Below, piece by piece: positions 26,186-40,506 of a stretch of DNA of 64,000 bases (within the stretch, counting starts at the first letter, position 1; each line of letters starts with the position of its first letter). The notes beneath the pieces were generated by a model. The model searched no databases. It was not told the DNA's origin and was given only the letters and a program-made list of their open reading frames with translations. The DNA comes from Oscillospiraceae bacterium (GTDB taxonomy: Bacteria > Bacillota > Clostridia > Oscillospirales > Ruminococcaceae), in assembly GCA_022768245.1 (NCBI GenBank), contig JALEMR010000051.1, positions 1-64,000 of the forward strand, given 5' to 3'. Position numbers and translations under genes: made by a program.

Positions 26186-28594
26186 TCAGCCAAGTGTTAT
26201 TGTGATATCGTTCTCGTCCTGAAGCTTGTCCGCGGGAATGAAGTTTCCGTCAAGCTTTTCGCCGTTCATGACGATCTCCTTAACGCCGCTCTCAACGCCG
26301 TCGGGATTGTTGAAGGTCATGTTCAGCTTCTTGCCTCTGAACTTCTTTGTAACGGTGTAGCTCTTCCAGTCGGAGGGAACTGCGGGGTCAACAACGAGAC
26401 CGTCAGCGTTGGGTCTCATGCCGAGGATACCCTCAACGCAGCCTACCATTACAGTAGAGCCTGTACCTGTGAGCCAGTGTACGTGAGAACGTCCCTCGAA
26501 GGGAGAGCGCTTGGACTCGGTGAACTGTCCGTGAACGTAGGGCTCCATAACTCTGATCTCTGCCTTATCGTTCATGGAAGCGGGCGAAGACTCGGTGAAG
26601 TATTCAAATGCGCGGTTACCGTGACCGAGGAGAGACTCTGCAAGGATAGCCCAGCCCTGAGTCTGAGAGAAGATACCGCCGTTTTCCTTGGTATCGGGAT
26701 TGAAGATATGCATGAGCGCACCGTCAAAGTAGTCGTTGATATAGGGAGGATCCATGATCTTTACGCCGTAAGGAGTATTGAGTATCTCGTGTACGGACTC
26801 CATGGACTTCTCGCCCTGCTCCTTGGAAGCAAAGCCCGAGATAACGCCCCAGCTCTGAGGATTGAGCCACATATTTGCTTCGGGGTCGTTCTTTGCGCCT
26901 ACCTTTACGCCGTCCTCTCTGATACCTCTGATGAATCTGTCCTCGTCCCAGCAGTCGGAGAGAGACTTGCCAAGCTTAGCCTGTACCTCGTCGAGATACT
27001 TGACATACTCGGTATCGTTCTTATCCTGAGCGTAGCCCTTGAGGATAGTCATAGCGTAGTAGAGCTGGAATGCAACGAATGTAGATTCGCCCTTCTTGCC
27101 CATTCTGAGGCAGTCGTTCCAGTCAGCGTGGAGACCTGCGGGCATATCGTGATCGCCGAGACGCTTCATGGAGAAGTCGATAGCACTCTTAAGGTGATCG
27201 TAAACGGTGCCCTCGCCGCCCGTAGCGTATACGATAACTTCATCGAGGAATGCCTTGTTGCCGCTTTCGCCGATGTACTTGTCGATAGTGGGGAAGAGCC
27301 AGAGAGCGTCGTCCGCACGGTAAGAGGGATGACCTGTCTCCTGAGCGTAGGGGGATTTTTCGTTGTTCTCGTCGGGAGCGTTTTCATGACCCGCATTGTG
27401 ATTGAACTTAACGAGGGGCAGACCGCCGCCGTTGTCAACCTGAGCGGAGAGCATGAATCTGATCTTTTCTGCGGCAAGCTCGGGATCGAGATGGATGATA
27501 CCCTGGATATCCTGAACGGTATCGCGGTAGCCGTAGCCGTTTCTGAGACCGCAGTAGATGAAGGAAGCGGCTCTGGACCAGATAAAGGTGATGAAGCACT
27601 GGTAAGCGTTCCATACGTTTATCATGTTATTGAAGGGCTCGGAGGGAGTATGTACCTGGAAGTTGTTGAGCTTGGAATGCCAGTAGTCCTTGAGCTCCTT
27701 GATCTCGGCGTCTACTCTGCCTGCCTGCTCGTAGGAAGCGATGATCTGGGAAGCCTCTGCGCTGTTCTTCTGACCAACGAGGAATACTATCTCGATAGTT
27801 CCGCCTGCGCCCAGCTCAACAGCTGTCTGGAGAGCGCCGCATGCATTGCCGTTGTAGTTGAGGACGTTGTCGCATCTGCCGCTTTCAACAGCGATAGGAT
27901 TTCCATATGTTCTGTAGGAGCCGATGAAGTTGTCCAGCGAGCCGTTGTAGCCGCAGACGGAAGCGCCTGCGATACCGAAGAAGCGCTCCTTGTGGTTGGA
28001 GCCTGTTGCGTCTCTGCCGCTGTTCTCGTTGATATGCTGGATTATTCTGTTTTCCTCGAAGGAGGTTCTTGTGATGAACTGAGTATACTGGAGATTTACC
28101 TGATCCTGCTCGTAGTTGCTTTCGGAGGTGAACTCGCAGAAGCCGTAAACGGAAAGCTTTCTGGGAGTGGGAGCCATATTGGTGATCCTTGCTCTCCATA
28201 CCTCGTAGGTCTTTCCGAGAGGAACGTAGTATGTCACCTCGGAGTGAACGTCTGCATAATCTGCGGACATTACGGTATAAGCTGTGCCGTGGCGGCATAC
28301 GCTCTTGTACTGATCGAGGGGCTTGCCGACAGGCTGCCAGGAAGCAGACCAGTAATCCTTTGAATCGTTATCCCTGATATAGATATATCTTCCGGGAAGA
28401 CCGATGTTGGAGTTGAAGCGGTAACGGAGGATTCTTCCGTTGGCGCCCGACTGAACGAAGCTGTAGCCTCCTGCATTATTGGAGATGATAGCTCCGTATT
28501 CGGGGGAGCCTAAATAGTTAGCCCAGGGTGCGGGGGTGTTGGGCTTATCAATTACATATTCCTTGTTTTCAAGGTCGAAATGACCATAGTTCAT
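26186..28594 (-). CDS. cbpA: Cellobiose phosphorylase (GH94)
   Basis: An 802-residue cytoplasmic enzyme that splits cellobiose with phosphate into glucose and glucose 1-phosphate, saving ATP in cellulolytic bacteria. The N-terminus MNYGHFDLENKEYVI matches known cellobiose phosphorylases. The catalytic region shows RNGYGYRDTVQD, then GGGLPLVKFNHNAGHENAPD and the catalytic-acid motif HADWNDCLRMG near 490-500. The C-terminal phrase HWLTGTGSTVMVGCVEGILG and the length also fit this subgroup rather than cellodextrin phosphorylase, which is longer. It has its own promoter (28669-28697) with a cre-like operator downstream of the start site. Codon use is strongly biased, as in highly expressed genes. 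Confidence 0.95.
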   Translation of the reverse strand: MNYGHFDLENKEYVIDKPNTPAPWANYLGSPEYGAIISNNAGGYSFVQSGANGRILRYRFNSNIGLPGRYIYIRDNDSKDYWSASWQPVGKPLDQYKSVCRHGTAYTVMSADYADVHSEVTYYVPLGKTYEVWRARITNMAPTPRKLSVYGFCEFTSESNYEQDQVNLQYTQFITRTSFEENRIIQHINENSGRDATGSNHKERFFGIAGASVCGYNGSLDNFIGSYRTYGNPIAVESGRCDNVLNYNGNACGALQTAVELGAGGTIEIVFLVGQKNSAEASQIIASYEQAGRVDAEIKELKDYWHSKLNNFQVHTPSEPFNNMINVWNAYQCFITFIWSRAASFIYCGLRNGYGYRDTVQDIQGIIHLDPELAAEKIRFMLSAQVDNGGGLPLVKFNHNAGHENAPDENNEKSPYAQETGHPSYRADDALWLFPTIDKYIGESGNKAFLDEVIVYATGGEGTVYDHLKSAIDFSMKRLGDHDMPAGLHADWNDCLRMGKKGESTFVAFQLYYAMTILKGYAQDKNDTEYVKYLDEVQAKLGKSLSDCWDEDRFIRGIREDGVKVGAKNDPEANMWLNPQSWGVISGFASKEQGEKSMESVHEILNTPYGVKIMDPPYINDYFDGALMHIFNPDTKENGGIFSQTQGWAILAESLLGHGNRAFEYFTESSPASMNDKAEIRVMEPYVHGQFTESKRSPFEGRSHVHWLTGTGSTVMVGCVEGILGMRPNADGLVVDPAVPSDWKSYTVTKKFRGKKLNMTFNNPDGVESGVKEIVMNGEKLDGNFIPADKLQDENDITITLG

Positions 28595-28620
28595 GGGACA
28601 GCACTCCTTTGATATTTTTT

Positions 28621-28635
28621 TTGTAACCGTTTTCA
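28621..28635 (-). promoter_or_regulatory. cre/LacI-family operator in the cellobiose phosphorylase leader
   Basis: TTGTAACCGTTTTCA matches the catabolite-responsive element consensus WTGNAANCGNWNNCW at every defined position. It lies about 30 bases downstream of the predicted transcription start, a position suited to roadblock repression. A second palindrome, TCGGAG-TAT-CTCCGA, lies at 28640-28654. Confidence 0.6.
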
Positions 28636-28668
28636 GCAGTCGGAGTATCTCCGATACATACTATTTAT

Positions 28669-28697
28669 ATATTATCATATAGCTGCTGTTTTTTCAA
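28669..28697 (-). promoter_or_regulatory. Promoter of cellobiose phosphorylase
   Basis: On the minus strand, TTGAAA (28697-28692), a 17-base spacer and TAATAT (28674-28669). Confidence 0.65.
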
Positions 28698-28767
28698 GTG
28701 ATTTCAGAATAATTAACAATTTTTTTACGTATTCATTAGATAAAATGTATTAAATCGCCTAAAAGCG

Positions 28768-28806
28768 TAAAAAATCCGATACGCCGCGGGGTGCGCCGTA
28801 TCGGAT
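28768..28806 (-). terminator. Terminator of the secreted protein gene
   Basis: On the minus strand, ATCCGATACG/CGTATCGGAT with a GC-rich loop, followed by a T-run. Confidence 0.85.
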
Positions 28807-28833
28807 ATGGTTCATATCACACGAAAGCGGATA

Positions 28834-29655
28834 TCAATAGCCGTAGCTGCTTAAGTCCATCTCTTCGTAGTCGTCGGGAACTGCCAGATCGGAGCTCTTT
28901 ACCGAGGTTGTGATCTTAACACTGTAAATGATAGAATCCTCCACCATCATAACGAGGTTGAGCTTGGTATCGAATACGCAGCCGATGGTACTGCCGTCGG
29001 AGGTCTCGAACACCTCATAATAGTAGCCCTTGTCCTTGTGCTTGAATTTGAAAAGCTTGCCCTTCTGAGAATCCTTTATGCCGAGATCCGCTGCGTCTTC
29101 TGCGGTCGATACAACAGCAGATGAGAGGTCCTCTTCGCTTTCACTTTCGTAGCTGATCATCTCCTTGGTAGAAATATCGAGGAGATAGGCTGTCTCTGCA
29201 TCCTGATATAAAGCCATACCTATCGAAGAACCGTCAACGTCCATATACATAACGGTCTTGGACTTATTTCCCTTGACAGCCATGCTGACTACCTGATCCT
29301 TTGAGACCAGAGTAACGGACATTGAAGCCTTGGAGGGGTCCTCGCTCATTTTAGATGCATTCTTATAGAGCTTATCGAAGAAACGCTTGGTTCTTGACTT
29401 GCTGTATGTAACAGCACTCTTGGAAGATTTTCCGTCATAGCTCTGCACCTTTTTTGCCAGTCCGGAATTGAATTTCAGACCTGCAAGCTTAACAGCCTCG
29501 GTGTATGCGGGGTCGGAAGCGTACATTTCGGAGACGATGCAGCTTTCTTCGGAATAATTATATTCCTGGGCAGTGGCAGCGATGCTGAAAGAAGAGATCA
29601 TTGAGCAGCATACTGCGGCTGCAAGTGCGACAGACATTTTTTTCTTGAAATTCAT
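28834..29655 (-). CDS. Unknown secreted protein (LolA-like beta-rich domain possible)
   Basis: A 273-residue exported protein that I cannot assign to a named family. The signal peptide is clear (MNFKKKMSVALAAAVCCSMI, cleavage near ATAQ at 29). The mature part has evenly spaced beta strands such as SMSVTLVSKDQVVSMAVKG, TVMYMDVDGSSIGMALYQD, TAYLLDISTKEMISY and KGYYYEVFETSDGSTIGCVFD. This layout resembles LolA/outer-lipid-binding-like folds used by some Gram-positive secreted lipoproteins, but no lipobox is present. It has its own perfect promoter at 29729-29757 and its own terminator. Its neighbours on both sides are transcribed separately, so the context gives no function. Confidence 0.7.
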   Translation of the reverse strand: MNFKKKMSVALAAAVCCSMISSFSIAATAQEYNYSEESCIVSEMYASDPAYTEAVKLAGLKFNSGLAKKVQSYDGKSSKSAVTYSKSRTKRFFDKLYKNASKMSEDPSKASMSVTLVSKDQVVSMAVKGNKSKTVMYMDVDGSSIGMALYQDAETAYLLDISTKEMISYESESEEDLSSAVVSTAEDAADLGIKDSQKGKLFKFKHKDKGYYYEVFETSDGSTIGCVFDTKLNLVMMVEDSIIYSVKITTSVKSSDLAVPDDYEEMDLSSYGY

Positions 29656-29728
29656 ATTGTGTATTCCTCCATTAAGTTAATTGTTACATTTTTTTGATCT
29701 TGGGGGTAAACTTTTGTAACTTTAGATA

Positions 29729-29757
29729 ATTATAGCATACTATAACCGTTTTGTCAA
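29729..29757 (-). promoter_or_regulatory. Consensus promoter of the secreted protein gene
   Basis: On the minus strand, TTGACA (29757-29752), a 17-base spacer and TATAAT (29734-29729) are perfect consensus hexamers. Confidence 0.85.
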
Positions 29758-29970
29758 TAATATTTCTCAAATATTTCATATTTCTAATGATTTTTTAAGG
29801 TAATGCATTTAGTGTATTGTCCAAGCTCTGTGAAATCAGTTTGTATGCCTGCGTTCCTGTTGTACTATGTTCTGAGAACAGCGTACACTTCAATATCTGC
29901 TAATAAATTCACCTGACTTTCACATACTCTTGTGCAAAGTGCTGATTTTGAAAAAAATATCAAAATACCC
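29758..29970. other. AT-rich intergenic stretch between divergent promoters
   Basis: Between the minus-strand promoter at 29729-29757 and the groES promoter at 29972 I see no coding signal, strong hairpin or repeat. Confidence 0.5.
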
Positions 29971-29971
29971 C

Positions 29972-29999
29972 TTGATTTTTTCTGAAAAGTTGGTAAAAT
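29972..29999 (+). promoter_or_regulatory. groESL promoter
   Basis: TTGATT (29972-29977) and TAAAAT (29994-29999) with a 16-base spacer lie directly before the CIRCE operator. An overlapping TATAAT at 29999-30004 is an alternative -10. Confidence 0.65.
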
Positions 30000-30003
30000 A
30001 TAA

Positions 30004-30030
30004 TTAGCACTCAAAGAGAAAGAGTGCTAA
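30004..30030 (+). promoter_or_regulatory. CIRCE operator (HrcA binding site)
   Basis: TTAGCACTC-N9-GAGTGCTAA matches the CIRCE inverted repeat exactly. It lies just after the groESL promoter, so heat-shock control by HrcA is expected. Confidence 0.97.
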
Positions 30031-30079
30031 CACACGAAGCTAAAGTCTGCTAACCGTTTATCGGGAGGCACCACTATAG

Positions 30080-30382
<303 letters not shown>

Positions 30383-30408
30383 TAAATAATCGTTTGATAC
30401 GGAGGTAA

Positions 30409-32043
<1,635 letters not shown>

Positions 32044-32064
32044 TAACTGACATGATCATATAGT

Positions 32065-32098
32065 AAAAAACCGTCGGGCAGACAGTCCGACGGTTTTT
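32065..32098 (+). terminator. Terminator of groESL
   Basis: AAAAACCGTCGG/CCGACGGTTTTT with a 9-base loop. Confidence 0.92.
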
Positions 32099-32121
32099 GT
32101 TATGTTTGCATGAGAGACAAT

Positions 32122-32154
32122 AAAAAACGTCAGCCGAAAGCTCTCGGCTGACGT
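32122..32154 (-). terminator. Terminator of the coiled-coil gene
   Basis: On the minus strand, ACGTCAGCCGA/TCGGCTGACGT followed by TTTTTTA. Confidence 0.9.
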
Positions 32155-32170
32155 ATGTATCGGTATAATA

Positions 32171-34054
32171 TCAGACCTTTACAACTGCCTTATTCATGAT
32201 CCTGCCGTTCTTGATGTTCTTGTAGCCGTAAAGTACGCACTCGTCCACGGGACCGGAATATTCCTCCTTCTTCTTATCGCCGAAGAAGAGAGCCTTTCTT
32301 TCCTCGCGGGACATTATGCGCTCATGGAGCTCTTCGTCGTACTGGGTGCCCTTGGGTGCGTCGATAAGCTCGTAAACGGGACTGCTCTGGCTGCTGTTGT
32401 GGAAATCGAGGAAGTATGCGAACAGCTTGTTCAGGCTGGCAACATCGGTGAAGTCCTCTGCTCTTATCCTGCTCTGTGCGTATTCCCACAGACCCTGGAT
32501 ATGACCCCACTGTGCGCCGCAGCAAAGGAAGCTGCGGATAGTAAGTCCTTCGGGGAATACCTGTGCTTCGTCCAGTCCCGACTTGGACTTGGGGGAGAGG
32601 TTGACATAAAGGTCATACATGGAGGTGAGATCGCCGAAGGTGGACTTGTAAGCGTCCGCGCTGCGCTGTGCTTCTTCGACCTCCTGCTGCATGGAGGTAA
32701 GGCGGGTGTTGAGGTCGCCTATGGAGTTCTTGTAGTCGTTTATCTGGGATTCAAGGGCAGAGGAATAATTGCCTGCGTCCTCGATCTGCTGCTCCTTAAG
32801 TGCGATAGTATCGTTAAGGTGGCTGATATTTGCGGAAAGCTCGGTGATCTGACCGTCTCTTGCGGTGATAGCCACATGAGCCTTTTCAACTTCCTCGGCG
32901 TAAGCGTTGGCAGTCTCTGCATATTCGTTGATCTTCTCCTTGAGGACAAGCATAGCCTGCAGCTGTCTTCTCATAACGTCAATCTTGTCGTCGCGCTCGT
33001 TGATAGTTGCATTGAGCTCGTTTACGGACGCGGTGAGATTTTCGTTTGTGCTGCGGAGGTTCTCCATTTTTTCGGCATATTCATTGCGCTCGGAGTTGAG
33101 CTCGCTGATGGTGGAATCCTTGTCCGCAAGGGCAGCCTTTGTACGTTCGAGCTGGTCTGCGATCTCAGCCAGCTTGGAGCCTGCGAGAGCAGCCTTTGAA
33201 GTAGCCTCGTCTGCGGCAGCCTTTATGGAAAGCTTGTCGTTTTCCAGAGAAGCGGTCTTTTCCTGAAGTGCGGATATCTGTTCGAATCTCTGTTCCAGCT
33301 CTGCGTTCTGCTGAGCGATGATCTCGTCGGCTTCTGCTTTAGCGGCATAGAGCTCGGAATATCTTGCCTTAAGCTCTGCGGCAGCCTCTTCCTTGGCGAT
33401 AGCCTCCTCCTTGACCTTGGCGGTCTGAGCTTCTGCGTCTGCGATCTTTGCGTTGAGGACCTCTATCTGCTCTGCGGCAGCCTTTGCGGAGCTGTCGCCC
33501 TGTGCCTGAGCGGCAGTCATAGCGCTGATACGGTTGTCCCTGTCGGTGATATCTGCCTTAGCCTTATCCAGCATTTCGGAGAGCTCGCCCACCTTAAGAG
33601 TGAGTTCGTTGATCTGATTTGCAGCTTCCTGAGCGCTGGAATCGCCAGCGGCCTGAGCAGCGGTCATGCTGCTGATACGGCTGTCTCTCTCGGCGATGTC
33701 AGCCTTAGCCTTTTCGGCAGCGGCGGTAAGCTCTTCTATCTTTGCGTTAAGGGATTCTATCTTGTCCTGAGCTGCCTTAGCGGTATTATCGCCCGAAGCC
33801 TGAGCCTCGGTAAGCTCGGATATCCTTCTGTCGCGGTCGGAGATCTCCAGCTTGAACTTATTGAGCTGGAGATTGATGCCGGATATCTCGATATTCTTGG
33901 AGTTGACCTCTTCTTCGAGCTCGGCGATACGTGCCTCATATTTTGCAATATCCTCGGCAAGAGAATCCTCGCCGAAAATTTTTCTGAGCGCAGCCTTGAC
34001 CGTATCGTCCGCAAGACTGTCGATCAGCATTCCGGTAAATTCATTTAATTCCAT
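32171..34054 (-). CDS. Long coiled-coil protein with GrpE-like C-terminal domain
   Basis: A 627-residue protein without signal peptide or membrane segment. Residues 35-455 are almost entirely heptad coiled coil, rich in Ala, Glu and Lys. Within this lie three near-identical 49-residue repeats starting at 71, 120 and 169 with the pattern I..RD.RIS..T.AQA.GD..A. The tail (about 470-627) is globular. It includes IRSFLCCGAQWGHIQGLWEY, then GTQYDEELHERIM, and finally GPVDECVLYGYKNIKNGRIM with NKAVVKV. The last part resembles the C-terminal beta domain of GrpE (pattern G..fD..lHeav...GtV.e.l..GY.....vlrpA.V.V), so I infer an Hsp70 nucleotide-exchange-related or structural role. It has its own promoter and lies tail to tail with groESL. 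The function is not established. Confidence 0.72.
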   Translation of the reverse strand: MELNEFTGMLIDSLADDTVKAALRKIFGEDSLAEDIAKYEARIAELEEEVNSKNIEISGINLQLNKFKLEISDRDRRISELTEAQASGDNTAKAAQDKIESLNAKIEELTAAAEKAKADIAERDSRISSMTAAQAAGDSSAQEAANQINELTLKVGELSEMLDKAKADITDRDNRISAMTAAQAQGDSSAKAAAEQIEVLNAKIADAEAQTAKVKEEAIAKEEAAAELKARYSELYAAKAEADEIIAQQNAELEQRFEQISALQEKTASLENDKLSIKAAADEATSKAALAGSKLAEIADQLERTKAALADKDSTISELNSERNEYAEKMENLRSTNENLTASVNELNATINERDDKIDVMRRQLQAMLVLKEKINEYAETANAYAEEVEKAHVAITARDGQITELSANISHLNDTIALKEQQIEDAGNYSSALESQINDYKNSIGDLNTRLTSMQQEVEEAQRSADAYKSTFGDLTSMYDLYVNLSPKSKSGLDEAQVFPEGLTIRSFLCCGAQWGHIQGLWEYAQSRIRAEDFTDVASLNKLFAYFLDFHNSSQSSPVYELIDAPKGTQYDEELHERIMSREERKALFFGDKKKEEYSGPVDECVLYGYKNIKNGRIMNKAVVKV

Positions 34055-34083
34055 ACAACAACCACCGTTTCATATTTTGATCG

Positions 34084-34102
34084 GCAGAATAAACTATTCT
34101 GC
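34084..34102 (-). promoter_or_regulatory. Leader hairpin of the coiled-coil gene
   Basis: GCAGAAT/ATTCTGC with a 5-base loop lies in the 5' untranslated region, about 30 bases before the ATG. A role in mRNA stability is possible. Confidence 0.45.
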
Positions 34103-34121
34103 TTTATACCTATTTATTGTT

Positions 34122-34150
34122 AATATATCATAAAATCAATTATTTGTCAA
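34122..34150 (-). promoter_or_regulatory. Promoter of the coiled-coil gene
   Basis: On the minus strand, TTGACA (34150-34145), a 17-base spacer and TATATT (34127-34122). Confidence 0.8.
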
Positions 34151-34323
34151 GGTTTTTTTTATACATTATCATTAAGATAAAACTGCAATAATTTCACTTA
34201 TTATCATATAATGATTTGTTATCGCCGAGAACGGCGCTCCTGCGCATAAGACGAGTTTTTCAAATTTTTTGAGCGGCAGGCTTTGTACGGATATTTTTTT
34301 CGGATATTTAAACTATTTGACGG

Positions 34324-34352
34324 TTGACTTTTTTATAAAAAAATTATATAAT
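34324..34352 (+). promoter_or_regulatory. Promoter of the MarR-GH3 operon
   Basis: TTGACT, a 17-base spacer and TATAAT. Transcription should start near 34360, which rules out any start codon upstream of that point for the MarR gene. The rest of the interval 34151-34323 holds only a small hairpin, CGCCG-AGAA-CGGCG, at 34223-34236. Confidence 0.85.
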
Positions 34353-34391
34353 GGATTCAGAAGAAAATCGATCGCTGAAGGGAGGAGGATC

Positions 34392-34859
34392 ATTACGGAC
34401 AGGGAAAATGAACACGGCGACCGCATCATGACCAGAATGATAGTGAGCGCAAAGAGGCTGGCGGGGATAAAGCTTGTGAAAAGTGATATGGAGGATATCA
34501 CCCGGAGCGACCTGAATATCATGTATGTTATCTCCGAAGCGCCCGACGGCATCCCCGTTTCGGACATATCCGAACAGCTGGGCTGTACCGTTCCCGCCGT
34601 TTCCAAAAGGCTGAAGCCTCTGGAACAGGGACATTATATCACCCGTAAAAAGGACGGTTCGGATCACCGCACCATAAAGGTATATCTTACCGATAAGGGC
34701 AGAAATATCTCCGAGCGCTGCAAAAGGGAGACCGCCGAGATAATGGGACGGATAACCGAGAGAATGGGCAACGATATGGACAAGTTTATCACGCTTGCGG
34801 AAAAATTTATCGACATAGCCGAGCAGGAGGTCAGAGAGTGGCAGCCCGACGGCAAATAA
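34392..34859 (+). CDS. MarR family transcriptional regulator, uncertain start
   Basis: A winged-helix regulator of 144 to 155 residues. The helix-turn-helix reads PVSDISEQLGCTVPAVSKRL followed by the wing LEQGHYITRKKDGSDHRTIKVYLTDKG (given here as two parts of one region), which is classical MarR. The start is unclear. GGGAGGAGG at 34380-34388 is well placed for an in-frame ATT at 34392. The first in-frame ATG is 34428, with no good ribosome site, but a seven-codon frame (ATG 34408 to TGA 34431) overlaps it. The gene lies 29 bases before the GH3 beta-glucosidase and is probably co-transcribed with it, which suggests control of a beta-glucoside gene or of its own operon. Confidence 0.82.
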   Translation: MTDRENEHGDRIMTRMIVSAKRLAGIKLVKSDMEDITRSDLNIMYVISEAPDGIPVSDISEQLGCTVPAVSKRLKPLEQGHYITRKKDGSDHRTIKVYLTDKGRNISERCKRETAEIMGRITERMGNDMDKFITLAEKFIDIAEQEVREWQPDGK

Positions 34860-34888
34860 TACATAGTCTGAGGTAAAGGAATTATTTT

Positions 34889-37624
34889 ATGAAAAAGGTA
34901 CTTGATTGGAATAAATATCTTGATAAGGCGGCAGAAGCGGTCTCCGAGGGAGTCGTACTGCTGAAAAACGATAACGGAGCTCTTCCTTTGGGTAAGTCGG
35001 AGGAGATAGCGCTCTTTGGAAGAATGCAGCTCCATTATTATAAGAGCGGCATGGGCTCTGGCGGTATGGTAAACGTTTCTAAGGTGACGGGCATTCTCGA
35101 CGGTCTCCTTGAAGCGGGCGCAAAGGTGAACGATGAACTGCTGGGAGTCTATAAAAAATGGGACGAGGAAAATCCCGTGAAGGACGAGGAAAGCTGGGGA
35201 AATGCCAAATGGTCTCAGGAGGAAATGCCCCTTGACGATACTATTGCCGAAAATATCGCAAAACAGACCGACACCGCTGTTGCAGTCATCGCAAGAACAG
35301 CCGGCGAGGAAATGGACAATACCTGCGAGAGGGGCTCATATCTGCTGTCCGAGGGCGAAAAGCAGATGCTTGTCACCGTGAGGAAGCATTTCAAAAAGCT
35401 GATAGTCCTGCTGAACACGGGCAATATCATCGACATGAGCGAGATAACAGAAATATCCCCCGACGCGGTGATGTACGTATGGCAGGGCGGAATGACCGGA
35501 GGAACCGGCACTGCACAGGTGCTGCTCGGAAAATCGCCAAGCGGAAAGCTGCCCGATACTGTCGCATATTCGATATCCGATTATCCCTCGGACAAATACT
35601 TCGGCAATAAGGAGAGGAATTTCTATTCCGAGGATATCTATGTGGGCTACAGATATTTTGAGACCTTCGCTCCCGAGAAGATATTATATCCTTTTGGATA
35701 CGGGCTTTCTTACACGAATTTTGAGGTCAATGTTACAGCGTCGGAAATTGATGATGTGACAGCAAGCTTTTCCGTATCCGTGAAAAATATCGGAGAATAT
35801 GATGGCAAGGAGGTCGTTCAGCTTTACTATTCCGCTCCCTGCGGAAAGCTGGGACAGCCCGCAAGACAGCTTGCCGCCTTTGAGAAAACGGACTGTCTTA
35901 AGCCCGGCGAGGAACAGACTTTAATTCTGTCAGTAAAGATCAATGACCTATGCTCTTACGACGATTCGGGCGTTACGGGACATCGCTTCTGCTATGTTCT
36001 GGAAGAGGGTACATACGGATTTTATATCGGCACAGATTCTCACAGCTGCCAAAAGGCGGGGGAGTATGTCCTCGATAAGCTCCGTGTGGTTCATGAGTGT
36101 ACCTCGGCAATGGCTCCCGTGGAGAGCTTTAAGAGAATGAAGTCGGATAACGGCAGACTTGTTTTCGAGGATGTTCCCCTTATGACCTATGATGAGAATG
36201 CAGTCAGAAAAGCTGCTCTGCCCGAAGAGCTGACATACACGGGCGACAAGGGCATAAAGCTTGCGGACGTGCTTTCGGGTAAATATTCCATGGACGAATT
36301 CATCGCACAGCTTTCCGATGAAGACCTTGCGGCGATAATCCGCGGCGAGGGCATGGGCAGCCCCAAGGTCACTCCCGGAACGGCTGCGGCATTCGGCGGC
36401 GTTACCGAAAGGCTGAAAGGCTTCGGCATACCCTGCGTATGCTGCGACGACGGTCCCTCGGGAATGAGACTTGACTGCGGCACAAAGGCGTTCAGTCTGC
36501 CTAACGGAACACTGCTGGCATCAACATTCAATACAAAGCTGCTGACAGAGCTTTTTATATTTACGGGCATGGAAATGACTGCCAATAAGGTAGACTGTCT
36601 GCTTGGTCCCGGAATGAATATCCACCGTCATCCCTTAAACGGCAGAAACTTTGAGTATTTCTCCGAGGACCCCTGTCTTACGGGCATTATCGCTTCGTCA
36701 CAGCTTGCGGGACTTAAAATGTCCGGAGTGACCGGAACGATAAAGCATTTCTGCGGAAACAATCAGGAGACCTGCAGAAGAACAGCGGACGCAATAGTCT
36801 CCGAGAGAGCGCTCCGCGAGATATATCTTAAGGGCTTTGAAACAGCCGTGATGAACGGCGCGGATTCTGTTATGACCACATACGGCTCGGTAAACGGCAT
36901 TCGCACTCCCGTCAGCTATGACCTGAACACGGTCATTCTCCGTGATGAATGGGGCTTTGACGGCGTTGTTATGACCGACTGGTGGGCTGCGGTGAACAGA
37001 CGTGACGAGGAAACATCCCTCACCGACTTTGCCGCAATGGCTGCTTCGGGCAACGACCTGTACATGGTCTGCGCCGACGGTGAAAAGCAGGAAGGCAATA
37101 CCCTTGATGAACTGAAAAGCGGCTTCATCACAAGGGGAGAGCTTCAGCGCAATGCAGCGGATATCTGCCGCTTTGTCATGAACAGCATGGCAATGAAGCG
37201 CATGCTGGGCACGGCGGACGAAATTGAGATACAAAATCGTCCCGACGAGGGCGAGACCAACGAGGGCGCTGTGGAATTCTTCAAGGTGGACCAAAAGGCT
37301 TCACTGTCGGGAGAAAATATCCGAGTCACAAAGGGCGGCTCCTATGCCTTTGGGCTGGACGTTTCCGTCTTCGGCAGATACAAGGTCAAGATTACCGCTT
37401 CATCGACGGCAAGCGAGACCGCACAGCTTCCTGTGACGGTGTTCTGCATGGGCTCGTCCATAGGCACCTTCACCTGGAATGGCACAGGCGGTGCTCCCGT
37501 TTCATTTGAAACGGACACATTCTTCTTCTCACGTTTTGTCACCATGAGACTCTATTTTGCACAGGGCGGACTTGATATGATAAGCCTTGATTTCGAGCTT
37601 ATCGAACCCGAGTCGATGCAGTGA
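34889..37624 (+). CDS. GH3 beta-glucosidase with permuted domain order
   Basis: A 911-residue glycoside hydrolase family 3 enzyme with the domains in reversed order. Residues 1-290 correspond to the usual second (alpha/beta sandwich) domain (EGVVLLKNDNGALPL, then LLNTGNIIDMSEI). Residues 300-400 are a fibronectin-III-like domain. Residues about 440-800 are the catalytic barrel with FEYFSEDPCLTGIIA, IKHFCGNNQE and the nucleophile in GFDGVVMTDWW (Asp 697). A beta-rich tail of about 110 residues follows. No signal peptide is seen, so it probably acts on imported cellobiose or other beta-glucosides. This order is known from some rumen GH3 enzymes, including R. albus. It follows the MarR gene. Confidence 0.92.
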   Translation: MKKVLDWNKYLDKAAEAVSEGVVLLKNDNGALPLGKSEEIALFGRMQLHYYKSGMGSGGMVNVSKVTGILDGLLEAGAKVNDELLGVYKKWDEENPVKDEESWGNAKWSQEEMPLDDTIAENIAKQTDTAVAVIARTAGEEMDNTCERGSYLLSEGEKQMLVTVRKHFKKLIVLLNTGNIIDMSEITEISPDAVMYVWQGGMTGGTGTAQVLLGKSPSGKLPDTVAYSISDYPSDKYFGNKERNFYSEDIYVGYRYFETFAPEKILYPFGYGLSYTNFEVNVTASEIDDVTASFSVSVKNIGEYDGKEVVQLYYSAPCGKLGQPARQLAAFEKTDCLKPGEEQTLILSVKINDLCSYDDSGVTGHRFCYVLEEGTYGFYIGTDSHSCQKAGEYVLDKLRVVHECTSAMAPVESFKRMKSDNGRLVFEDVPLMTYDENAVRKAALPEELTYTGDKGIKLADVLSGKYSMDEFIAQLSDEDLAAIIRGEGMGSPKVTPGTAAAFGGVTERLKGFGIPCVCCDDGPSGMRLDCGTKAFSLPNGTLLASTFNTKLLTELFIFTGMEMTANKVDCLLGPGMNIHRHPLNGRNFEYFSEDPCLTGIIASSQLAGLKMSGVTGTIKHFCGNNQETCRRTADAIVSERALREIYLKGFETAVMNGADSVMTTYGSVNGIRTPVSYDLNTVILRDEWGFDGVVMTDWWAAVNRRDEETSLTDFAAMAASGNDLYMVCADGEKQEGNTLDELKSGFITRGELQRNAADICRFVMNSMAMKRMLGTADEIEIQNRPDEGETNEGAVEFFKVDQKASLSGENIRVTKGGSYAFGLDVSVFGRYKVKITASSTASETAQLPVTVFCMGSSIGTFTWNGTGGAPVSFETDTFFFSRFVTMRLYFAQGGLDMISLDFELIEPESMQ

Positions 37625-37709
37625 GTGCTTCATTTTCGTCAATTATCACACTATTTGATGTATTGAGAAGATTTTTCATGTGAAAAACAAAGAATTTATT
37701 GATAATTTC

Positions 37710-37738
37710 TTGACAAAGTGAAAAAATCTATATATAAT
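37710..37738 (+). promoter_or_regulatory. Consensus promoter of the DUF6465 gene
   Basis: TTGACA (37710-37715), a 17-base spacer and TATAAT (37733-37738) match the consensus exactly. The leader is about 87 bases. Confidence 0.88.
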
Positions 37739-37831
37739 ATAGTTGTTAATGGAATATATATTTTTATGCGTTATGCGAATAAAATTATATAGGCAAATCA
37801 GACGATCGAATTTTTAATGGAGGTTATAAGT

Positions 37832-38134
37832 ATGGCTTCGAGAAAAACAGAAGGCACAGTATCAAAGACAGCAGCTTCCACCACTAAGAAAGCTGCCGCA
37901 AAGACAGCTGAGAAAAAAGATGTTAAGACAGAGGTAAAGTCATCGGTCTATGTTGAGTACGGCAGCGGTCAGATAGACGTAAAGAATATCCTTCAGGACG
38001 TTATCGCAGCTAATTCCGCTGAAGGCGGCGAGGCTCCCAAGTCCGTTGAGATATACATAAAGCCTGAGGAAAAAGCAGCATACTATGTTATCAACGGCAA
38101 GTCCGAAGGCAAGAAGATAGATCTTTATTTCTGA
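37832..38134 (+). CDS. DUF6465 family small protein
   Basis: A 100-residue soluble protein. The first 40 residues are a basic, Lys/Ala/Thr-rich low-complexity region (VSKTAASTTKKAAAKTAEKK), reminiscent of histone-like tails. The second half is a conserved small domain with VYVEYGSGQIDVKNILQDVI and IYIKPEEKAAYYVINGKSEG, which matches the DUF6465 family of Clostridia. The function is unknown. The tail could bind nucleic acid or polyphosphate, which is inference. ATG 37832 behind GGAGG is chosen over ATG 37817, which overlaps that site. A perfect promoter and a terminator make it monocistronic, and it looks highly expressed. Confidence 0.78.
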   Translation: MASRKTEGTVSKTAASTTKKAAAKTAEKKDVKTEVKSSVYVEYGSGQIDVKNILQDVIAANSAEGGEAPKSVEIYIKPEEKAAYYVINGKSEGKKIDLYF

Positions 38135-38163
38135 TCTGTTATTCAATAAGCTTTAACCTGAAC

Positions 38164-38198
38164 AAAGACGTTTCGCTTTTGTAACGGAACGTCTTTTT
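38164..38198 (+). terminator. Terminator of the DUF6465 gene
   Basis: AAAGACGTT/AACGTCTTT stem extended by CG pairs, followed by T's. Confidence 0.82.
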
Positions 38199-38249
38199 GA
38201 TGTAAGCGCTTTTTTGCGCGAAAAATATATTTTTAAGGAGAAAATCATC

Positions 38250-39035
38250 ATGAATCTTAAAAAAACTGCCGCAGCTCTCTGCATTATGAGCGTATGCGCT
38301 CTTTCCGCATGCGGAAGCTCCGTTCCCGCAAATACAGTAAACTCCGTTGACGACCTCAACGGCAAGACTATCGGTGTTCAGCTCGGCACCACAGGCGATA
38401 TCTACGCAGGCGACGTAGAGGGCGCTGCCGTTGAGCGCTACAACAAGGGCGCTGATGCTATTCAGGCTCTCAAGCAGGGCAAGGTGGACGCTGTTATCAT
38501 CGACAACGAGCCCGCTAAGGTATTCGTTGAGAATAACGACGATCTTAAGATACTTCCCGACGCATTCGCTGTTGAGGAGTACGCTATCGCTATCAAGAAG
38601 GGCAACGATGAGCTCACCGAGCAGATAAACGGCGCTCTCGCAGAGCTTAAGGCTGACGGTACCCTCGATTCTATCAAGACTAACTGGATAGGCGAGGAAG
38701 CAGGTCAGCACCCTTACACTTCTCCCGAGGGCACAGACCGCAGCAACGGTACTCTCGTTATGGCAACAAATCCCGAGTTCCCTCCCTATGAGAGCATGAG
38801 CGGCGATACCGTTATCGGCTTCGATGCTGATATGATGCAGGCTGTATGCGACAGACTTGGCATGGAGCTGGTTATCGACAGCATGTCTTTCGATTCCATC
38901 ATCGCAGCCGTTGACTCCGGCAAGGCAGACGTAGGCGTCGCAGGCATGACCGTTACCGAGGAAAGACTTGAAAACGTAAACTTCTCCGATCCCTATACTA
39001 CCGCTACTCAGGTAGTTATCGTCAGAAAAGACTGA
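38250..39035 (+). CDS. Amino-acid ABC transporter substrate-binding lipoprotein, circularly permuted
   Basis: A 261-residue solute-binding protein of the SBP_bac_3 family, the extracellular receptor of a polar amino-acid importer. The lipobox LSAC puts the lipid on Cys 21. The order of the two halves is swapped. Residues 32-153 (SVDDLNGKTIGVQLGTTGDI ... NGALAELKADGTLDSIKTNW) correspond to the normally second half. After a Pro/Ser/Gly linker, residues 168-261 (TLVMATNPEFPPYESMSGD ... GMTVTEERLENVNFSDPYTT) correspond to the normally first half, with the ligand-binding aromatic and acidic positions present. The permease and ATPase genes follow directly and look normal, so the system is probably functional. 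Start ATG 38250 lies behind AAGGAG. Confidence 0.88.
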   Translation: MNLKKTAAALCIMSVCALSACGSSVPANTVNSVDDLNGKTIGVQLGTTGDIYAGDVEGAAVERYNKGADAIQALKQGKVDAVIIDNEPAKVFVENNDDLKILPDAFAVEEYAIAIKKGNDELTEQINGALAELKADGTLDSIKTNWIGEEAGQHPYTSPEGTDRSNGTLVMATNPEFPPYESMSGDTVIGFDADMMQAVCDRLGMELVIDSMSFDSIIAAVDSGKADVGVAGMTVTEERLENVNFSDPYTTATQVVIVRKD

Positions 39036-39059
39036 TAAGCTTCGCGGGGAGATCAGCTG

Positions 39060-39752
39060 ATGAACGAAATTCTTGAAGTACTGTACAAGACCTTTATCGT
39101 GGACGACCGCTGGAGATTTCTGACCGACGGTCTTAAAAACACGCTTACTATCACATTATTTGCCGTTATCATAGGAATGGTGCTGGGTCTGATAACCGCG
39201 ATCATCAGGACCACCCATGACAAGACGGGACATCTTAAGATACTCAACTTCATATGCAGGGTGTATCTGACGGTCATTCGCGGAACGCCCGTAGTTGTCC
39301 AGCTTCTGATAATCTACTTCGTGGTGTTCGGCTCGGTCAATATCAACAAGCTTTTTGTTGCCGTGCTGGCATTCGGTCTCAATTCGGGAGCGTATGTGGC
39401 GGAGATAATCCGCTCTGGCATCATGTCCATTGACAACGGACAGTTTGAAGCGGGCGAAAGTCAGGGCTTCAGCTATACGCAGGTCATGATCTATATCATT
39501 CTTCCGCAGGCGTTCAAGAACGTTCTTCCCGCTCTGGCAAACGAGGCCATCGTTCTGCTTAAGGAGACCTCCGTTGCGGGATATATCGCCATAAACGACC
39601 TTACAAAAGGCGGGGATTATATCCGCTCCGTGACCTATCAGGCTTTCCTGCCTCTGGTCACAGTGGCGCTTATCTACCTTGTTATGGTAATGGCATTATC
39701 ATGGCTTGTTTCCAAGCTGGAAAGGAGACTGGCTCTCAATGACAGACGATAA
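39060..39752 (+). CDS. Amino-acid ABC transporter permease (HisM/GlnP type)
   Basis: A 230-residue integral membrane permease of the polar amino-acid family. It has about five hydrophobic segments, starting with [20 protein letters not shown], then the family signature [20 protein letters not shown] near 76-95. The ATPase-coupling EAA loop appears as [22 protein letters not shown] near 138-159. It works with the binding protein upstream and the ATPase downstream. Its 3' end overlaps the ATPase start at 39739 by 14 bases, which implies coupled translation. Confidence 0.94.
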
Positions 39753-40506
39753 GAAAAAATCCTGGGACTCCAATTCCGATATGATAGTTGCGGACGGTCT
39801 GTACAAATCCTTCGGGACTCTCAACATTCTTAAGGATGTCAGCGTTACCGTGAAGAAGGGCGAAAAGGTGGTCATCATCGGGCCCTCGGGGTCGGGAAAG
39901 AGCACCTTCCTGCGCTGTCTCAATCTCCTTGAAAAGCCTACGTCGGGACATATCCTCTTCGAGGGCACCGACATCACCGAGGCAAAGGGCGCCGAGCTTA
40001 ACATGATAAGACGGCGCATCGGAATGGTTTTCCAGCACTTTAACCTGTATCCTCACCTGAGCGTGAAGAAGAATATCACTCTCGCTCCCGTAAAGCACAA
40101 GATATTGACTGCCGAGGAAGCCGACAAAAAGGCGGACGAGCTTTTAAAGCTGGTCGGACTTTCCGATAAGGCGGGGGCGTATCCCAATCAGCTTTCGGGC
40201 GGTCAGAAGCAGCGTATCGCCATTGCGAGAACTCTTGCCATGAATCCCGACGTCATCCTGTTCGACGAGCCTACCTCCGCGCTTGACCCCGAAATGGTAG
40301 GCGAGGTGCTCAATCTCATGAAGCAGCTTGCGGACGCGGGAATGACCATGATCGTCGTGACTCACGAAATGGGCTTCGCGCGTGAAGTCGCTTCAAGAGT
40401 AATGTTCATGGACGACGGAAATATCCGGGAGGAAGGCACTCCCGACGAATTCTTCGGAAATCCCCGCAATCAGCGCTTAAAGGACTTCCTTTCGAAGGTT
40501 CTGTAA
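39739..40506 (+). CDS. Amino-acid ABC transporter ATP-binding protein (GlnQ type)
   Basis: A 255-residue ATPase of polar amino-acid importers. Walker A is GPSGSGKST near residue 50, the Q-loop region is [13 protein letters not shown], the signature LSGGQKQR lies near 151, Walker B is [20 protein letters not shown] near 171-190, and the switch region is [12 protein letters not shown]. These match GlnQ/ArtP/HisP closely. The start is ATG 39739 behind AAAGGAG; an in-frame extension to 39706 lies deeper in the permease gene. A strong terminator follows at 40521-40554, so the importer is a three-gene operon. Confidence 0.95.

Follow-up and report, generated by a model that had tools for sequence, protein, structure and literature searches.

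The window (the whole 64,000-nucleotide stretch of DNA analysed here, from the genome that we call G000) carries on its minus strand a gene for a long-stalked protein with a GrpE-like tail, adjacent to and convergent with groES (30095-30382) and groEL (30415-32043), with terminator-like hairpins between groEL and the long-stalked gene. Its features, from promoter to terminator, are:

34122..34150, minus: promoter-like TTGACA-17-TATATT, kept in three species of the genus
32171..34054, minus: long-stalked GrpE-like protein, whole ORF, 627 aa, ATG start, dN/dS 0.053
33971..34054, minus: N-terminal segment, aa 1-28, possible anchor (likeness by eye)
32960..33970, minus: coil segment 1, aa 29-365, in a single unbroken heptad register
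33698..33844, minus: repeat 1, aa 71-119
33551..33697, minus: repeat 2, aa 120-168
33404..33550, minus: repeat 3, aa 169-217
32879..32965, minus: conserved motif within the coil, aa 364-392, coinciding with the +3 register shift; each of the five long members has it
32642..32959, minus: coil segment 2, aa 366-471, in a shifted register
32375..32641, minus: helical domain, aa 472-560, family-specific, not significantly matched by the GrpE helix bundle
32174..32374, minus: probable GrpE-type beta-wing, aa 561-627; long members have in common an insert that follows its conserved His
32127..32154, minus: terminator-like hairpin, 12 pairs, 3' of the stop codon

By a simple counting method we compared the gene between G000 and G002, the sole pairing used because synonymous change relative to G003 was near saturation. 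The whole ORF gave a dN/dS of 0.053 (groEL, 0.043), with 0.037 in the 49-residue repeats, 0.034 in the C-terminal part (aa 471-627) and 0.010 around the mid-coil motif (aa 361-392). This is a real, conserved, working gene under purifying selection, with its own conserved promoter; no CIRCE element was found at it, the sole CIRCE of the window (a perfect one) lying at 30004-30030, upstream of groES. The first-pass annotation had drawn attention to the position next to groESL. The adjacency is present in the window, and groEL is a neighbour in G002 as well, but other genes neighbour the long-stalked gene in G003, G117 and G203, with nothing obvious in common among translations read by eye; since the adjacency is not conserved, we regard the link to groESL as incidental and reject it as a functional clue.

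Relatives were collected from family, order and phylum samples of genomes, which overlap in part. In the family sample, 11 of the 197 genomes were listed at E up to 0.1, and six (the window's own included) have the GrpE-like gene; the weak matches L013 and L015 were left out of the member count, L016 (ParA-like) and L017 (a transposase) were rejected on reading, and at L014 the sole ORF seen was antisense to another gene. The order sample listed 4 of 345 genomes, with G461 and the window's own accepted and G440 and G520 left out, while the phylum sample gave 5 of 398 at E up to 1e-4, namely the window's own and four new ones. A scan of genome contigs returned one locus (L005, the G002 contig), and no homologues were found in viral contigs, plasmids or phages. 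There are five long members (G000, G002, G003, G117 and G203) and six short or medium ones (G152, G461, G943, G1135, G1261 and G1181; about 156-380 aa). The window protein falls within the family by its definition, a helical plus beta-wing domain held in common with the short and medium members, and its N-terminal segment (aa 1-28) has a look-alike, judged by eye, in the g1, g115, G461 and G152 members.

Over residues 29-471 (443 residues) the window protein is heptad-periodic and proline-free, which bears out the initial description of a coiled coil of more than 400 residues. Proline is absent before residue 471, the hydrophobic period of 3.5 over residues 30-470 had a power of 4.5 (at most 2.0 in shuffles), and our register-tracking script found one register from 29 to 365, a single +3 shift, and then one register to 471. 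In each of the five long members (G000, G002, G003, G117 and G203) this shift coincides with the motif QLQ.M.VL.EKINEYA.TANAYA..VE.A; the motif is missing from the short members. Within the window genus, length is fixed (627 aa in G000 and G002, 626 aa in G003, with no gap before residue 590), whereas the sister-genus proteins reach 733 aa (G117) and about 725 aa (G203), with several further register breaks in the coil. The suggestion of a ruler thus survives in part: because the sister-genus coils differ in length and register, a precise ruler is plausible only within the genus and is unlikely across the clade. If fully helical, and at the usual rise per residue, the coil would form a rod of about 65 nm, presumably a parallel dimer, in two parts of roughly 50 and 15 nm jointed at the conserved mid-coil motif. 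Long bacterial coiled coils of SMC and other types resemble it in coil-profile matches and comparable rod length (the SMC arm measures 49 nm according to the available text of PMC5526789), but the window protein has no ATPase head or hinge. Matches to SMC, Rad50, MAD, JetC and others covered the coil only, fell far below cut-offs, and were rejected as coiled-coil cross-matches.

Three repeats spaced by 49 residues and starting at residues 71, 120 and 169 had been described as exact. Their presence and spacing are confirmed, but their sequences are not exact, the pairwise identities being 24, 27 and 25 of 49 residues. At lag 49 the best self-match over 45 residues had 29 identities, whereas 200 shuffles of the coil gave no more than 16 of 45 at any lag tried; at the DNA level (spacing 147) the copies were 71% and 62% like the reference copy. 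Flanking 49-residue units (starts 22, 218 and 267) do not match, at 3-10 of 49. All three repeats are retained in the G003 orthologue and the sister genus has a single unit-like stretch (by eye), so the tripling looks specific to the window genus.

In layout the protein is like GrpE (PF01025), with a coiled stalk, then helices, then a C-terminal beta-wing, and the C-terminal GrpE-type pattern first noted in it is indeed present at residues ~561-627 (common to both: G..FD...H......G.V..v...GY...g.vi..a.V.V). From the window sequence alone the relationship is not provable: the Pfam GrpE model did not match the window tail, and against an unbiased comparison set of nine canonical GrpE proteins, retrieved with the Pfam model rather than with our family profile, the tail scored 20.6 in hhalign with a shuffled maximum of 20.1, which is not beyond chance. 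The profile comparison proposed at the outset was nonetheless significant at the level of the family, the 11-row family profile scoring 50.5 against the independently chosen GrpE set (at most 19.0 in 120 shuffles), the five long rows alone 38.1 (null 23.1), the six short/medium rows alone 41.4 (null 18.6), and the beta part of the profile 46.2 (null 24.2, 100 shuffles). A first profile-profile score of 88.8 was discounted, because nine of the ten GrpE rows of A7 had been chosen by the family profile; unbiased GrpE sets gave 49.1 and 50.5.

The Pfam GrpE model matched the tails of G203 (22.5 bits, E 9.7e-5, hmmscan) and G117 (17.7 bits, E 0.003), as well as G943 (E 0.033) and G152 (E 0.049), with no match for the G003 and G461 tails. 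When the tails of G203 and G117 were scanned against all of Pfam, GrpE was the sole family returned; each of these tails is also the second-best GrpE match in its genome, behind grpE itself. Searching the class sample with the family profile (391 genomes, E up to 0.01), we found that 10 of the 13 non-self matches were true GrpE genes, the remainder being other proteins (L060, L063) or a broken frame (L062). Together, the family-level scores, the Pfam matches and the class-sample matches indicate that the protein ends in a diverged beta-wing of GrpE type, ~67 residues long and homologous at the family level. By the curated cut-off of PF01025 (25.8 bits) the long-stalked protein is not a GrpE: the window gave no match and its best relative, G203, 22.5 bits, reaching 30.8 bits only when adjacent coil pieces were included in a genome-wide profile search. 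The GrpE signal is confined to ~45-50 columns. The helical part scored 11.5 against the GrpE bundle (null maximum 17.5; not significant), GrpE did not come up when the PDB was searched with the family profile, and an AlphaFold model based on the window and L005 sequences (192 aa) was poor (pLDDT 44.6) and was set aside. The GrpE likeness might instead be convergent, arising in a small beta domain of other ancestry whose turns follow a similar pattern; the few columns involved and the non-significance of the window alone speak for this, but long rows and short rows each exceed their own nulls, Pfam returned GrpE only for the tails of G203 and G117, and all six short members are located with an Hsp70-like gene, and we consider convergence very improbable.

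As the first-pass annotation held, this is not the housekeeping GrpE: canonical grpE of the window genome stands beside dnaK on contig C86, separate from the long-stalked gene, and canonical grpE was likewise present in 10 of the 10 other genomes tested. Compared with GrpE, the window protein has a stalk of ~443 residues rather than ~70 (the latter from the available text of PMC12987570), a length of 627 rather than about 200 aa, a different helical domain and an extra beta-wing insert, and its gene lies outside the hrcA-grpE-dnaK cluster without CIRCE control. Of the proposal of an extended GrpE paralogue, the relationship to the GrpE beta-wing stands at family level, but by appearance the protein is no offshoot of housekeeping GrpE.

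The short and medium members have the same C-terminal helical plus beta-wing domain as the window protein (23-27% identity) but differ from it in their much smaller size (about 156-380 aa) and in their linkage, seen in all six, to a divergent Hsp70-like ATPase gene; for five of them the linkage is direct, and at two loci there is also a HerA-like ATPase. The Hsp70-like ATPase gene lies 3 bp downstream of the GrpE-like gene in G152 (983 aa), 3 bp from it in G1135 (994 aa) and 9 bp from it in G943 (its ORF in two pieces), overlaps it in G1261 (1010 aa), and in G1181 follows at 12 bp (1092 aa), then comes a second copy of 1043 aa, so that tandem Hsp70-like genes stand behind one GrpE-like gene (L110:6936-13390). 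In G461 the two genes share a strand, with the ATPase gene lying about 4.4 kb downstream, beyond the HerA-like gene, and itself interrupted by an IS630-like transposase gene (L031:12293-13492). The ATPase motifs occur in the order VGIDFGTKST, EPAAYA...FDFGGGTTDFDFG, LAGNSSKSPIV and GKTGVAFGLL, and match those of DnaK by eye; Pfam HSP70 matched the G1135 copy (E 0.0046) and none of the other copies scanned, while hhalign aligned the linked ATPase with DnaK over the second phosphate motif (E 1.7e-4, probability 49.5). We call these ATPases Hsp70-like on the eye-read motifs together with modest profile support. Hsp70-like genes without an adjacent GrpE-like gene were found in G003, G123 and G207. 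In the family sample the Hsp70-like gene was present in 2 of the 6 GrpE-like-bearing genomes against 4 of 197 overall (P = 0.0045, with no phylogenetic correction).

The idea of an Hsp70 partner, supported by the linkage in all six short and medium members, fares worse in the window genome. No Hsp70-like gene was seen near the long-stalked gene among the ORFs read in 27000-40000, and a search of the long-form genomes found none in G000, G002, G117 or G203, leaving G003 as the only one with such a gene, unlinked on another contig. Matches to PF00012 in G000 were DnaK and two partial matches only, which we read as MreB-like. No Hsp70 paralogue of the linked kind having been found in the window genome, the case for a dedicated partner there is weakened, by the refuting condition set in the first-pass annotation. 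Such a partner might be encoded by an unlinked gene that was missed in the window assembly; G003, of the same genus, has both genes unlinked and the assemblies are drafts (G000 is 98% complete), but there was no match either in G002, G117 or G203 (93-100% complete), which makes this quite improbable. Separately, two adjoining ORFs in G203 (503 and 602 aa; G203:C22:3705-6490, the L043 region) have Pfam HSP70 matches besides DnaK, and this pair may be a possible further Hsp70 partner.

In GrpE dimers one beta-wing keeps the Hsp70 nucleotide-binding domain open, and the stalk, of about 70 residues, contacts the chaperone, according to the available texts of PMC4753570, PMC12987570, PMC10803776 and PMC10825016; in Mycobacterium tuberculosis GrpE the contacts to DnaK include basic stalk residues Arg64-Arg86 (available text of PMC10803776). 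No significantly aligned equivalent of the latter was found in our family, the matched columns being those of the beta-wing only. We favour, at about even confidence, the reading of the window protein as an orphaned, lengthened member of the Hsp70-linked GrpE-like family that binds an Hsp70 at the end of its rod. In this view about 443 residues would form a parallel coiled-coil rod ending in the helical domain and GrpE-type beta-wing, and the latter, by analogy with GrpE, would bind the Hsp70 nucleotide-binding domain and either promote ADP release or hold the chaperone. The N-terminal segment may serve as an anchor and the mid-coil motif as a joint or docking site. Such a protein would descend, in a direction that we infer, from shorter GrpE-like proteins whose genes accompany that of a divergent Hsp70-like ATPase, the stalk having lengthened in the long lineage, partly by tripling of the seven-heptad unit, and the linkage to the ATPase having been lost. 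Because no ATPase of the linked kind was found in the window genome, the likely client there would be housekeeping DnaK or an unrecognised Hsp70-fold protein. Three options follow for that genome: action on DnaK, action on an unrecognised ATPase, or loss of the Hsp70 role. Every step past a beta-wing on a long coil is one that we infer.

A structural rod (a cytoskeletal, nucleoid or envelope scaffold) whose tail is of GrpE ancestry without Hsp70 function, the head serving for dimerisation or another ligand, is a rather doubtful alternative. It would agree with the lack of a linked Hsp70-like gene in all five long-form genomes, with the beta-wing insert added in long members, and with their common mid-coil motif, which short members lack, but the head is strongly constrained (dN/dS 0.034 over aa 471-627 between G000 and G002) and retains most conserved positions of the family.

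GrpE is described as the only type of Hsp70 exchange factor in bacteria, and as the sole one per eubacterial genome, in the available text of PMC4753570. If bacteria do have a separate GrpE-like family paired with Hsp70-like ATPases of its own, and one branch of it carries a stalk six times as long, then both the partners and the reach of bacterial Hsp70 cofactors have diversified. Whether stalk length positions Hsp70 within the cell also becomes testable. Neither a long-stalk GrpE nor a GrpE-like/Hsp70-like pair was described in the literature that we covered (titles and abstract openings, with subscription papers and preprints outside the scope).

Besides the Hsp70-like gene, G943 and G461 carry a HerA-like ATPase of ~1030 aa (HerA models match that of G461), making a recurring cassette of GrpE-like gene, Hsp70-like ATPase and HerA-like ATPase in distant genomes of the phylum (L107 in G943, L031 in G461); that of G461 also has a dynamin-like GTPase, on the opposite strand. 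This cassette may represent a mobile or defensive system. In the GAP1-N2 GTPase conflict systems of Firmicutes and Actinobacteria, HSP70 is paired with a GrpE other than the housekeeping one (eLife 2020, available text of PMC7159879), whereas the window gene stands alone. A more specific proposal, which we hold to be unlikely, is that of a bacterial Hsp70 co-chaperone serving as a tether of long reach: a jointed rod of ~65 nm that bears a GrpE-type head would anchor Hsp70 action at a fixed cellular site, having evolved from a GrpE-like/Hsp70-like pair that is otherwise part of a mobile, possibly defensive, cassette with the HerA-like ATPase. Downstream of the Hsp70-like gene, G1135 (L108:10093-11880) and G1261 (L109:1552-3336) encode a protein of ~595 aa; the G1135 copy has a DUF4280 match and a near-cut-off AHH nuclease match, like secreted toxin cargo.
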